From assembly GCA_018992685.1 (NCBI GenBank), contig JACVGT010000016.1:1-38597 (forward strand): 38,597 nucleotides of DNA, written 5' to 3'. Origin of the DNA: Theionarchaea archaeon. GTDB taxonomy: Archaea > Methanobacteriota_B > Thermococci > Methanofastidiosales > SZ-28-30. The translations under genes and the position numbers were made by a program. Below the pieces are notes generated by a model that was given only the letters and a program-made list of their open reading frames with translations, ran no database searches and was not told the origin of the DNA. This document shows, one piece after another, positions 17,041 to 28,689 of the stretch (position 1 is its first letter; each line of letters begins with the position of its first letter).

Positions 17041-17066
17041 GAAAGAATAAAAAAAGAAAAATTAAA
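17041..17066 (-). terminator. T-rich termination region of the minus-strand S-layer-like gene
   Basis: On the minus strand this stretch reads as runs of T (TTTTTCTTTTTTTATTC), directly after the stop at 17062. Archaeal terminators are typically such T runs. Confidence 0.45.
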
Positions 17067-17895
17067 AGAAGAAGATATCTACAAATTCTGCAGTATCTTC
17101 TCCTGTATATTTGACGATCACCACAACAGGATGGAGGTCCTGTTTTTCTCCGGAAACCATCCAGATGAGTACCTTGTCCAGTTCCCGTGAGATCCATCTC
17201 CCTTTGAGATGCTTTCCATTGAGAATGTCTCTCAGGTAGATAGAAGCTGCCAGAGTACCTTCTCTGCCATTTCCTGCTACCACAAGAGTTCCGAGCTGCC
17301 TGTTACCATTAATCACATCTTCCAGCGTTTCTCCATTGAGAAATGGCTGATTGGGCAGAAATGCGATAATCCCATATTCATCACCAACATACTGTGTGGG
17401 TTCTCCTTCAACGAAAGAGGTAATAGTCCACGTGTCGTTTTGGTGATCTTTGAGCAGTTTCAGGGGTAGTTCCAAGTTCAGTTCTCTGGTGATCATATTC
17501 ACGTCGGGGCCACCCACTGAGACCAGAATGACTCCCTCATCTAGTCCCTGAACACTCTCCATGTCAACAGTGCACATACCGAGTGAGTCCAGTGCTACAG
17601 GATTGACACCCAGGAAGTTCAGCTTGAGATCAGGGCGCTTGAACGTGATTCTCCTCTGGCTGTCATTGATCCAGGATTGCAGGCCAAGCTTGACAAAGGC
17701 AGAAGCAACGACATCTTGTGGGTGTGCTTCCCGTCCCACCAGGACAACAGATCCGGGGTCCAGTCTGAGGTTTGGTCTTAGCAGCAGTGGAAGCTGCGGG
17801 GCTGGCCCAGCCGTTAACTCAGCTCCTCCAAAAGAGAGCATCTGAAGGCCGAGCACGCAGAGTACAAATAAGACTACTAGTTTCAGGCTAACCAC
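17062..17895 (-). CDS. Exported S-layer-like protein
   Basis: 277 residues with an N-terminal signal peptide (LKLVVLFVLCVLGLQMLSFGG). Repeated strand-turn units read VVLVGREAHPQDVVASAFV, VILVSVGGPDVNMITREL and GTLVVAGNGREGTLAASIYLRD. These are typical of the archaeal S-layer family units (VILVGGP.VN and VVVAG.DRE.T). No transmembrane anchor is present at the C-terminus, which ends VDIFFF. The start is uncertain: GTG 17895 is the last GTG of a GGAGGTG that would itself be the ribosome-binding site, and the first sensible spacing from it falls on CTG. A TATA box at 17946-17953 is shared in both directions with the next gene. Confidence 0.75.
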   Translation of the reverse strand: MVSLKLVVLFVLCVLGLQMLSFGGAELTAGPAPQLPLLLRPNLRLDPGSVVLVGREAHPQDVVASAFVKLGLQSWINDSQRRITFKRPDLKLNFLGVNPVALDSLGMCTVDMESVQGLDEGVILVSVGGPDVNMITRELNLELPLKLLKDHQNDTWTITSFVEGEPTQYVGDEYGIIAFLPNQPFLNGETLEDVINGNRQLGTLVVAGNGREGTLAASIYLRDILNGKHLKGRWISRELDKVLIWMVSGEKQDLHPVVVIVKYTGEDTAEFVDIFFF

Positions 17896-24439: not shown

Positions 24440-25954
24440 ATGAAAGAAATTGTCCTTGTCTGCTTCCTGCTTGCTGGGATGCTGCCTGCAGGTCAGCCTG
24501 ATGAGACTGTTGTTCTTCTGATTAATTCCATTGACAGAGGACTCAATTCAGACTTCATTGACTTCTTGGAAGGAAACTATGATGTAGCTCTGGTGGGTGC
24601 TTCCGAGTTCGAACAGTACAAGAAGAGCCCGTATATTGTAATTCTTGGAGGGAACAAAGCCCCTGAAGGTGTGGGAAACATTGTTGATACTATCCTGAGC
24701 GAGCAGGAAAAAAGTGAAATCAGCACAGAAAAGAGGATGCTCACCAAGCTGAACCTTTGGGGCGAAGAGCAAGTTGTAGTTCTTTTTGCAGGCCCAGATA
24801 GGGAGCAGACTCAGACTGCATGTCAGGAGGGCACAACTTGTTATTCCAGTCTCCTGAATGCTATAAAGAGACTCAAGGAAGAAGTGATCACTCCAGATCA
24901 GAAGATCATAGCCTTTTTGTGGCCAGAGCCTCTTTCGAGCAGCGACGAGATTGCACCCTATGCTCCTGCTCAGGAAGAATTCACAACGGTACCGCACCTG
25001 ATTCCTTATCCCCTCGAGGAGAGCTGCTGGTTCTTCTGGATCGATGATGATCCCTATGCCAAGTTTGCACATCCTGTACGGTTTATCTTCTTCTGGATTG
25101 AATCAGAAGATCTCACTGTGTATGACGAGGAGTGGTGGCCAGTTCTCAATGAGGCGTCCTTGTGGGCTGATGAAGAGGAATACTGGAATGCGGCCTACTG
25201 GGTTGTGAATGCAGGAATAGAAAGACCAACCCCTTCTGTCTTCTTGTACAGAGCTGGTGCCCCGCTCGACCAGGAAGAGGAATCCTCCGGGAAGGCTCTC
25301 GTGGTTAATGGATGGAAGGAAGGAGAACACTCCAAGGAGACCCTAGCAGAAGATGAAAAATCCATGACTGCAGCTTTTAGGGGGACGGGACTCTCTGTGG
25401 CGGGGGCCCGAACAGTCAGAGACATTGAGAAAACTCTCAGGACGTGGTCCAAGGAAATGGAACCCGACAGTACCGTGGTGACGTACATTACCGCCCACAG
25501 TAATAGAGGCTATGTTCTCATCGGCGGAGAGAAACTGACAGTGGCTGCATTTTCAAAGCTTCTGAGTGATTTTGAGGACGGAGTTCACATCTTTGTGATA
25601 GTAGATGCATGCTACGCGGGAACGTTTCTGGCAGATGAATTGAAAAAGGAAGCGGAGATCATCATAACATCAACAAGTTCCACCAAGCGCGCGTACAGGG
25701 ATTTTGATCCAAAGAATGACGTTAATCCCTTGGACAAAGGTTCAGAATTTACCAGTGGATTGTCCAAGAATTTCTATGTACTGCAGGAGATTTCAGTTGA
25801 TTCACCCCCGGACACCTACGGCCGCATTTTTGGCAAAGTTGAAGAAGTGATGACAGATATAGTAGAACTAGATGCTGCTGCCCAGAATGGTTTCTCAGAT
25901 CCCCAGCTATGGATAACGGAGGAAACAAAGGGTCCACCTGAAGTCTATACCTAG
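24440..25954 (+). CDS. Exported S-layer-like module fused to a caspase-like (clan CD) peptidase domain
   Basis: 504 residues. A signal peptide (KEIVLVCFLLAGMLPAG) is followed by an S-layer-type module with YIVILGGNKAPEGVGNIV and VVVLFAGPDREQTQTA (about residues 65-135). A central part is rich in Trp and acidic residues. The C-terminal domain from about residue 280 (GKALVVNGWKEGEHS) has the clan CD order: helix, then VVTYITAHSNRGYVLIGGE with His353, then IFVIVDACYAGTFLADEL with Cys391 (D-A-C-Y-x-G), and later IIITSTSSTKRAY. These match the caspase/legumain His-Cys dyad. It should be a cell-surface cysteine peptidase. No transmembrane anchor is seen at the C-terminus. The start has a strong ribosome-binding site, GGAGGTCAT. 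Confidence 0.78.
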   Translation: MKEIVLVCFLLAGMLPAGQPDETVVLLINSIDRGLNSDFIDFLEGNYDVALVGASEFEQYKKSPYIVILGGNKAPEGVGNIVDTILSEQEKSEISTEKRMLTKLNLWGEEQVVVLFAGPDREQTQTACQEGTTCYSSLLNAIKRLKEEVITPDQKIIAFLWPEPLSSSDEIAPYAPAQEEFTTVPHLIPYPLEESCWFFWIDDDPYAKFAHPVRFIFFWIESEDLTVYDEEWWPVLNEASLWADEEEYWNAAYWVVNAGIERPTPSVFLYRAGAPLDQEEESSGKALVVNGWKEGEHSKETLAEDEKSMTAAFRGTGLSVAGARTVRDIEKTLRTWSKEMEPDSTVVTYITAHSNRGYVLIGGEKLTVAAFSKLLSDFEDGVHIFVIVDACYAGTFLADELKKEAEIIITSTSSTKRAYRDFDPKNDVNPLDKGSEFTSGLSKNFYVLQEISVDSPPDTYGRIFGKVEEVMTDIVELDAAAQNGFSDPQLWITEETKGPPEVYT

Positions 25955-26080: not shown

Positions 26081-26755
26081 GTGGCTCCTGATATCTACAG
26101 CATACTCAATTATCCCCATAGAGAACGAAATGAGCTACTGGAACATGCGCTTGCTGATCTGGGGATCACCCTGCATCCCTTTGGCAGTAATGTCGTGTGG
26201 GGAGTGCCCATTCTGGGGAAAGGGTGGTCTTCCATTGTGGTCTATGGAATCCAAGAGCAGAGAGAGGTAGCAATTAAAATCCAGAGAAAAGACTCACATC
26301 GCCTTTCATTGGGCAGGGAGGCTCTTTTCTTGAGGATAGTGAATGATAAAGGAATTGGCCCCACCCTGTACCATGAAGGGAAGGACTTTCTAGTCTTGGA
26401 ATACATCAAAGGAGTACCCATAAGAGATGCATTAGTACAAGTGGAGCATCTTAGATCTTTTCTTGAACAGTGTTATACACTGGATCTCTTGAATGTCGAT
26501 CATGGGCAGATTCAGGGAGGGAAACATCTCGTTGTTGGTGAGAAGTGCTGGATTATAGATTTCGAGAAAGCGGGATTCAGAACTCCTCGCAATGTCAGTT
26601 CACTTGTTTCTGAAGTGTTCCTGAGAAAGACAGAGTGTGCATCTCGAATAAGATCTCAGGTTCCTATACCCCCTGAATCCCTCATTGAAATAATCCGGAA
26701 CTATAAGAAAACAAAGGACCTCACCTGGCTTCTAGATGCACTCCGCCTTACATGA
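26081..26755 (+). CDS. Predicted Ser/Thr-type protein kinase (COG2112-like)
   Basis: 224 residues, a minimal kinase. It has a glycine loop GKGWSSIVVYGI, VAIKIQRKDS with the ATP-binding Lys, LVLEYIKGVPI (hinge), LDLLNVDHGQIQGGKHLVV as the catalytic loop (NVDHGQ where HxD/HGD is usual) and WIIDFEKAGF (metal-binding Asp). This is the plan of small archaeal RIO/Bud32-like kinases of COG2112. Targets are unknown. The start is a leaderless GTG; no ATG of suitable position precedes the glycine loop. It follows the caspase-like gene by 126 bp but has its own promoter. Confidence 0.8.
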   Translation: MAPDIYSILNYPHRERNELLEHALADLGITLHPFGSNVVWGVPILGKGWSSIVVYGIQEQREVAIKIQRKDSHRLSLGREALFLRIVNDKGIGPTLYHEGKDFLVLEYIKGVPIRDALVQVEHLRSFLEQCYTLDLLNVDHGQIQGGKHLVVGEKCWIIDFEKAGFRTPRNVSSLVSEVFLRKTECASRIRSQVPIPPESLIEIIRNYKKTKDLTWLLDALRLT

Positions 26756-27003: not shown

Positions 27004-28689
27004 ATGAAAAAGATGATTGTCTCTGTGGTGACAATATTGTTTCTCTTGAGTGTGGTTCCCATTGCGCCCGGTAGAATTTCTATAAGGGTCTTGGTGGACG
27101 AATCAAGAGTATGTGGCTGGGATTCTATATATCAAGACATCCTGATTGAAAGAGGAGCCCCAAGCAACACGAACTGGGATTTCTCCTTCTCAAGCGAAGA
27201 GCCTTGGGCATTCAGCAATGGAGCAGAGGAAATTCGAAATGTAGCTTCGATACATGTCAAGAAATCCGGGACTCTCGATTACGCAGAACTGAGAGACTAC
27301 GATGTGTTGATTATTGCGTCCTTTGAAGAAAGCTATAGTTCTGCTGAAATGGACGCTGTCCGGCAATTCGTAGAGAATGGTGGGAGCCTTCTCATGCTTG
27401 CAGATGCAGATTTCCCTAATAATAGTGCGTCTCGCGCATTTGACGTTATATTTTCCTCGCAGACCGCAGTTATCGCTGACAAGGAGGGTGTATTGAAAAC
27501 GTTTCACTATGGAGACTTGGACTTTACATTGGAAAGAGCCCTCTTCTTCTATGTTGACAACGTGGAGGTCCATCCAGTCACAACAGGAGTTGACAGAATA
27601 GCCCTGGTGTACGGAGTTCCTATCATTCAATATGAATCAGGAACGGTGCTGGCAAGGACTGACAGCAGTTCATGGTTGGATACACTCGGCAGTCGAGAAG
27701 GTTCGAAACAACCAGAGGAAGAGGCGGGCCCCTTTGACGTCCTGCTGGCCATGGAAAATGTGGGAAAGGGAAGAGCACTCTTTATTGGAAGTTCAATATC
27801 ATTCTGGAATGCTGTCACACAGGACGAAAAACAGAACCTCAAGCTCCTTTCAAACGCAGTGACGTGGTTGGGTGAGCCAGGTGGACCATACAAGCAGTAC
27901 CAGACCACAAATGATGAGGCACAACATATTGTAGCTGAAGCGACGTCCTTGTATTACAGTCATGAATTCCTCGAGGCAGAGACACGATTCAGGGAAGCCC
28001 TTGCATTTTTCGAGGAATCCAATGAGATCTTTCCCAACGTTGATGCACGAGAGGGCATTGAGGATGTCAGATTGTGCTTAACAATGTGCGGCATTGGCAT
28101 GCAGGCTGAAGAGATCCACGCCAATGCAACACGTTTATTCACAGAACGGGAGTATGAGAAAGCCATTGAGGAATTTGAGAAGGCAAAATCACTCTACGAT
28201 GAGATTGAGTGCACAGCAAGAGCAGATGAGTGTGCCAAAAAGATAGATGAGAGTATTTCGTGGATTACGTTACGAAACAAAGCTGCCCAGGAACTTCAAC
28301 AAGCAGAAGAGGCTCTCAGTGTAGCACCGAGTACGTTTGATGCTGCAGGCTACGAACAGGCAAAACGGCTCTTCCTGCAGGCCAAAAGCTCATGGGAGGA
28401 ATACGATGATCCTGTCCAGGTGACAGCTTGCGAAGAGTATATTGAACAGTGTGAGACAGAACGTGGAAGAATAAGAAGCAGGGTTGTAATGGTGGAGGCT
28501 ACATCAGCCCTCGTGCTGGTAGTTCTCTCGGCAATGATTGCCTTCATTCATTGGCACAGGAAGAAGGTGAAGCAACCTGCCGAGCCCAATGCAAGAGACG
28601 CTCTTGCTATCGTTTCTGAGCGATACGTAAGAGGTGAAATCACCAAAGCAGAATATGAAGAAATGATGTCCACCCTAAAGAGAGAGTAG
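27004..28689 (+). CDS. Membrane protein: GATase-like ectodomain, helical repeats, SHOCT tail
   Basis: 561 residues. A signal peptide (KKMIVSVVTILFLLSVVPIAPG) precedes a GATase1-like/DUF4350-type domain (about residues 25-295). That domain includes YDVLIIASFEESYSSAEMDAVRQFVENGGSLLMLADAD and a closing GKGRALFIGSS. Residues about 300-490 are helical TPR-like units (YYSHEFLEAETRFREAL, LFTEREYEKAIEEFEKAKSLY). A transmembrane helix (SALVLVVLSAMIAFIHW) is followed by HRKK and a C-terminal SHOCT-type segment (ALAIVSERYVRGEITKAEYEEM). The ectodomain is thus outside and SHOCT inside. The role is unknown. ATG 27004 is preceded by AGGTGATGAG. Confidence 0.75.
   Translation: MKKMIVSVVTILFLLSVVPIAPGRISIRVLVDESRVCGWDSIYQDILIERGAPSNTNWDFSFSSEEPWAFSNGAEEIRNVASIHVKKSGTLDYAELRDYDVLIIASFEESYSSAEMDAVRQFVENGGSLLMLADADFPNNSASRAFDVIFSSQTAVIADKEGVLKTFHYGDLDFTLERALFFYVDNVEVHPVTTGVDRIALVYGVPIIQYESGTVLARTDSSSWLDTLGSREGSKQPEEEAGPFDVLLAMENVGKGRALFIGSSISFWNAVTQDEKQNLKLLSNAVTWLGEPGGPYKQYQTTNDEAQHIVAEATSLYYSHEFLEAETRFREALAFFEESNEIFPNVDAREGIEDVRLCLTMCGIGMQAEEIHANATRLFTEREYEKAIEEFEKAKSLYDEIECTARADECAKKIDESISWITLRNKAAQELQQAEEALSVAPSTFDAAGYEQAKRLFLQAKSSWEEYDDPVQVTACEEYIEQCETERGRIRSRVVMVEATSALVLVVLSAMIAFIHWHRKKVKQPAEPNARDALAIVSERYVRGEITKAEYEEMMSTLKRE

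Follow-up and report, generated by a model that had tools for sequence, protein, structure and literature searches.

The best explanation for a 504-residue protein encoded in the window, a Theionarchaea DNA stretch of 38,597 nucleotides, and one that we hold to be rather probable, is an exported, zymogen-type, clan CD cysteine peptidase of C13-like sequence. The enzyme would sit near the S-layer and digest or trim extracellular proteins. The more interesting part of the protein is its middle domain (residues ~133–265), which was missing from the account in an earlier note on this DNA. Here, a conserved domain without a Pfam model is paired with clan CD peptidases in two domains of life. The protein also illustrates one way in which a secreted protease may be held at the surface of an uncultured archaeon from sediment.

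The gene encodes a signal peptide and three predicted modules

The open reading frame lies on the forward strand (24440–25951), with its ATG at position 24440 and a stop codon ending at 25954. The host genome is 3.03 Mb in 45 contigs. The frame, and the motifs TAHSNRG (with His353) and DACYAG (with Cys391) spaced 38 residues apart, agree with the earlier note. Judged from its sequence, the product is composed of an S-layer-type domain, a middle domain and a clan CD peptidase domain, placed in that order after a signal peptide. The Sec-type signal peptide (residues 1–20, MKEIVLVCFLLAGMLPAGQP; 24440–24499, forward strand) was read from the sequence, without a cleavage-site prediction tool. An equivalent hydrophobic N-terminus aligns in the orthologue and in both paralogues, consistent with the export proposed previously, which would proceed via Sec.

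The orthologue, from a sister species, is 76% identical to the window protein. Relative to this sequence dN/dS is ~0.20 overall, and 0.16–0.21 for each of the three domains; hence, purifying selection acts on the gene. The middle and peptidase domains are separated by a variable linker (residues ~266–280; 25235–25279, forward strand) that is gapped in alignments. Identity between the orthologues is lowest here (62.5% for residues 266–281), and the linker is a possible maturation site. A scan for σ70-type promoters at the gene scored at chance level, with a consensus that is not apt for archaea.

The peptidase domain is of C13 type by sequence

The peptidase domain (residues ~281–491; 25280–25912, forward strand) matches the Pfam model Peptidase_C13 (PF01650) at residues 342–417 (E 9.1e-6; 25.8 bits, compared with a curated cut-off of 22.8). 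The window protein had no Pfam match to C14 (PF00656) at E≤1 and the caspase label was rejected. Every one of 12 aligned relatives matches C13 (E≤0.1) and six of them match C14 as well. Thus, the border between C13 and C14 does not appear sharp in this group. We compared a profile of the 12 relatives with the PDB. The best match was plant metacaspase-4 (E 1.3e-15); plant asparaginyl endopeptidase (7.7e-11), human legumain (9.3e-10) and GPI transamidase (1.3e-5) were also found. The window protein alone returned only repeat-protein noise.

Structure prediction had been suggested for both halves of the protein. The peptidase core was well modelled, with pLDDT of 70–92 across most of residues 281–410, but the full-length model, made with seven sequences, has a mean pLDDT of 54.9 and is poor outside this core. 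Structural matches to the model included legumain (Z 13.5, rmsd 3.2, 162 aligned residues), metacaspase-4 (Z 13.2), GPI transamidase (Z 12.9) and caspase-7 (Z 12.6), so the C-terminal half does resemble the caspase fold. These Z scores are tied within 1. Hence, the fold identifies the clan (CD), and the choice of C13 follows from the sequence. We therefore assign the window enzyme, on sequence grounds and across a blurred boundary, to C13 (legumain-type) rather than to the C14 caspases. The previous description as caspase-like holds for the fold but probably not for the family.

His353 (codon 25496–25498) and Cys391 (codon 25610–25612), both on the forward strand, are invariant in alignments reaching Thermoplasmata and Actinomycetota. 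The HG motif at His353 lines up with that of metacaspase-4 and asparaginyl endopeptidase at their catalytic His. Cys391 is matched to Cys139 of metacaspase-4, a position that reads Ala in the C139A chain. The dyad recognised in the earlier note is thus in register with solved enzymes. In clan CD, the usual order is a His at the end of a strand and a Cys after the next core strand. In our model, one strand ends with His353, and Cys391 comes directly after the next core strand (383–389). Downstream is an acidic loop (residues 419–440, YRDFDPKNDVNPLDKGSEFTSG; 25694–25759, forward strand) in which Tyr419, Asp421, Asp423, Asp427, Asn429, Pro430, Asp432, Gly434–Phe437 and Gly440 are invariant in a seven-sequence alignment. 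This is probably a substrate-pocket or metal-binding loop.

The similarity to legumain and asparaginyl endopeptidase (C13; 5obt, 4n6o and 6dhi) covers the Pfam C13 match, the clan CD fold, the His-Cys dyad with an acidic residue at Cys−2, and an NGW/NG motif after the first strand. Conversely, legumain has a C-terminal LSAM prodomain; the window frame ends 13 residues past the last conserved residue, Trp491, and has none. Instead, the window protein has the N-terminal middle and S-layer-type domains. Metacaspase-4 (C14B; 6w8s), the closest PDB entry by profile, has its HG and DxCxSG motifs in register with our protein. The window protein differs in its predicted export, in having no C14 match at the threshold above, and in showing no metacaspase p10 region or linker.

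The codon after that of His353 (25499–25501) is AGT (Ser) in the window copy but GGG (Gly) in the sister species, and residue 354 is Gly in the aligned relatives. Because of this Ser, the window peptidase could be weakened. Taken to its end, the argument would make the protein a surface scaffold with little or no catalytic activity, in which the peptidase fold is kept for binding, like the degenerate actinobacterial copies described below. The His-Ser pair would fit, as would loss of the dyad in 14 relatives. However, the window copy, the orthologue and the paralogues all keep both dyad residues, and dN/dS for the catalytic domain is 0.20. We consider a scaffold unlikely and favour a working peptidase.

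The earlier note also raised a part in cell death or defence. In favour of such a caspase-like effector, acting in cell death or against phages, is the clan CD fold common to this protein, caspases and metacaspases. However, the protein is predicted to be exported, has no death, NACHT, TIR or sensor domain, and is encoded among housekeeping-like neighbours with no death-associated partner seen. Its relatives have domains known from extracellular proteins, namely Ig-like, CARDB, PKD and repeat domains. The peptidase had no PADLOC match at E≤0.1, although a protein missing from the library could still act in defence. On these grounds we regard such a function as very improbable, and retain that of an extracellular peptidase.

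Substrate specificity

The Asn-specific S1 pocket of legumain comprises Arg44, His45, Ser216 and Asp231 (PMC4357240). In alignments read by eye, the window protein has Thr301 and Leu302 at the positions of Arg44 and His45, which are thus not conserved. In these alignments, the RHQAD sequence of the plant enzyme aligns with dfaeD in our profile, which is TLAED at residues 301–305 of the protein. In PmC11 and clostripain a basic P1 residue is favoured by Asp177 and Asp229, respectively, the primary S1 residue at Cys−2 (PMC4850288). Asp389, two residues ahead of Cys391, matches this position. Since Asp389 is present, and legumain Arg44 and His45 are absent, cleavage is probably after Arg or Lys rather than Asn. 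Legumain too has an acidic residue (Glu) at Cys−2, so a basic P1 is a guess.

The middle domain is conserved and precedes clan CD peptidases

No Pfam model significantly matches the middle domain (CWFFWIDDDPYAKFAHPVRFIFF...EEWWPVLN; 24836–25234, forward strand), a presumed propeptide or regulatory module. The domain is conserved in Thermoplasmatota and Actinomycetota, with the motifs WFFWIDD..AKFAHP.RF.F and EEWWPV.N. Our first query contained the peptidase. Hence, 389 Thermoplasmatota and 399 actinobacterial-class genomes were searched again, using only the middle domain as query. Hits running off contig ends (L103, L123, L162 and L171) were excluded. A clan CD domain follows the middle domain in all 33 distinct proteins readable past it; 31 of these pairings were over the profile threshold and two (L169 and L174) were recognised by eye. 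The His-Cys dyad is present in 19 of the 33 proteins. In the other 14, all actinobacterial, it is degenerate; HG is changed to GG or similar, and DAC to DAP.

In the actinobacterial proteins L161, L163–L170 and L172–L176, the middle domain and a clan CD domain that has degenerated (His replaced by Gly or another residue, Cys by Pro) start very long frames. Many of these are 2000–3000 amino acids in length, with repeat-type sequence afterwards. The pair has apparently been reused here in a non-catalytic role. Because the middle domain is kept beside these 14 degenerate domains, it cannot act solely as an inhibitor of an active enzyme, and is perhaps also a folding partner or interface.

We modelled a Thermoplasmata copy of the middle domain (L055; pLDDT 83.6, pTM 0.81). 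The model consists of a helix and an antiparallel sheet. A Foldseek search with it found nothing at E≤0.001. In a second-look structural alignment, the best match was 4exr (Z 5.4, rmsd 2.6, 62 aligned residues), where a Z below 8 can mean a common arrangement. The vibriolysin propeptide (3nqz) gave Z 4.0. The 4exr sequence matches a PepSY profile (E 5.7e-4) that itself has an M4 propeptide entry as its best match. The Pfam PepSY model (PF03413) was detected, below its cut-off, in 4 of 13 middle domains (best E 0.12), and L055 scored 12.2 bits against a cut-off of 24. A profile-profile comparison of the middle domain with PepSY sequences, four from Thermococcaceae, gave no significant result (12 columns), and the middle-domain sequence profile had no match in the PDB. 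A PepSY-like fold is our best reading of the model, and a tentative one.

PepSY is a module of M4 metallopeptidase propeptides. In those propeptides, and in the PepSY lipoprotein 4exr, a helix is followed by an antiparallel sheet, as in the model of the middle domain. The M4 propeptide also occupies the same place, ahead of a secreted peptidase. Conversely, the partner here is a clan CD cysteine enzyme rather than a metalloenzyme, and the middle domain has conserved motifs of its own (WFFW.DD and WWPV.N). Given its exclusive pairing with clan CD domains in our sample, and what PepSY does in M4 propeptides, the middle domain may act like a propeptide. It would aid folding, block the active site until cleaved off or displaced, or do both. 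If it is a latency switch, the idea of a PepSY-type propeptide extends from metallopeptidases to the caspase/legumain clan. A wider scheme is plausible, if somewhat short of an even chance. The middle domain would be a PepSY-like zymogen module for clan CD peptidases in archaea and bacteria. Theionarchaea would have joined it to an S-layer-type domain, making a surface-docked processing enzyme, and the bacterial branch would have put the pair to non-catalytic use within giant repeat proteins.

The N-terminal domain is of S-layer type

The N-terminal domain (residues ~21–132; 24500–24835, forward strand) carries the motifs VILGG and VVVLFAGPDR. In a whole-protein search, homologous domains of ~110 residues were found in 32 of 61 related genomes and in many contexts, including numerous exported proteins of the class. 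Copies in the same genome are joined to thioredoxin-like, beta-propeller-like and glycosidase-like parts. Copies in relatives occur with rhodanese-like and right-handed-repeat parts (some labels in both sets were read by eye), and Thermococcaceae copies sit near the protein C-terminus. The S_layer_C model (PF05124) is matched by 13 of 19 family members (best E 1.2e-5), but the window copy alone has no match at E≤1. There are 18 S_layer_C matches in the host genome, and motifs of the LIGGP and VAGKDR type are common to the N-terminal domain and to the larger S-layer-type proteins of that genome. Thus, the (L/I)xGGP and AGxDR motifs of S_layer_C proteins recur in the window protein, which differs in having a single compact N-terminal module, below the Pfam threshold on its own. 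By sequence, the S-layer likeness claimed in the earlier note is real at the family level. The window encodes a second S-layer-type protein, an exported product of 277 amino acids (17062–17895, reverse strand; S_layer_C E 1.7e-6).

From this homology, we infer that the enzyme is retained at or near the S-layer by its N-terminal domain. The earlier note had called the protein anchored. This was too firm; after the signal peptide, no transmembrane segment, lipobox or sorting tail was seen in the 504 residues.

Distribution and gene neighbourhood

The combination of S-layer-type, middle and peptidase domains was seen only in two Theionarchaea genomes, with two paralogues in each. A search for the same fusion, as the earlier note had advised, therefore succeeded within these genomes but found none elsewhere. 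The second, sister genome is Theionarchaea MAG SZ_28-30, of the same genus as the window genome; in one contig search it supplied three of six relatives. Thermoplasmata relatives have a Big_7 Ig-like domain ahead of the middle and peptidase domains and no S-layer-type domain. Actinobacterial relatives have only a signal peptide or other sequence at this position. Because the three groups differ here, the N-terminal cap is swapped while the middle and peptidase domains stay together. In L057, the third protein from Theionarchaea, the peptidase is followed by CARDB. No relatives were found in a plasmid search; in viral contigs, none of six pattern matches was confirmed.

Downstream of the peptidase gene is a gene for a small protein-kinase/APH-like protein (26081–26755, forward strand) with weak Pfam and NCBIfam matches, the best being Bud32 and APH. 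The gene order is the same in the sister genome, and the kinase-like gene is absent beside the paralogues. Co-transcription with the peptidase gene is possible. Further along the window (27004–28689, forward strand) is an exported membrane protein gene, encoding an ABC_transp_aux/DUF4350-type domain, helical repeats and a SHOCT tail. It is missing at the matching site of the sister genome; there, the gene that comes after the kinase-like one is a radical SAM gene.

In both genomes, a paralogous peptidase gene lies ~80 bp after that of a membrane protein with metal-binding MopE repeats (L042:5197–7682 and L053:4213–6542; MopE E 2.9e-79 for L053). The MopE-repeat protein is a possible substrate or partner of the paralogue. 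Such a substrate would suit an enzyme of surface-protein maturation, which acts on exported proteins, those of the S-layer or others, by trimming or transfer, and does not feed the cell. The S-layer-type domain would place the enzyme next to S-layer proteins, several of which are encoded in the genome. GPI transamidase (C13), which trims and transfers proteins in eukaryotes, is among the matches by both structure and profile. However, the middle and peptidase domains also occur together without an S-layer domain, and a fold match cannot tell hydrolases from transamidases. A dedicated maturation enzyme is thus a minority possibility, more credible than a scaffold.

A predicted role outside the cell

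In the explanation that we prefer, a zymogen-type peptidase near the S-layer, the exported protein would cut extracellular proteins with the His353-Cys391 dyad, assigned by conservation and alignment, once the middle domain was out of the way. Most likely, it would digest detrital protein in the sediment or trim surface proteins of the cell itself. MBG-D archaea, which are thought to mineralise protein, have genes for C11, C13 and C25 peptidases (PMC6461988). In one estuary sediment, exported gingipain-like, Arg-specific enzymes dominate the exported peptidase genes (PMC6752024). A nutritional role for the window enzyme fits both reports. The secreted MBG-D enzymes, from sedimentary Thermoplasmata, share its clan and type of habitat, and this likeness points to detrital protein digestion as a likely role; the available part of the study describes neither an S-layer fusion nor a PepSY-like domain in them (PMC6461988).

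The earlier note considered such enzymes little described in archaea. This stands for the fusion; we found no description of it, or of a PepSY and C13 combination, in the openly searchable literature. It does not stand for the peptidases more broadly, given the C11, C13 and C25 genes above.

The same genome has two C14 matches elsewhere, L051 (C3:109319–110047), with no obvious signal peptide, and L002 (C15:51304–51552), in a frame whose product is apparently exported and has a hydrophobic segment at its C-terminus. Finally, Thermococcaceae proteins of ~740 amino acids (L035, L036, L062, L064 and others) match C13 only near NQCFGGG, one of them over the cut-off. These have a separate ...SDHGN motif downstream, and look like an undescribed, rearranged clan-CD-like family.
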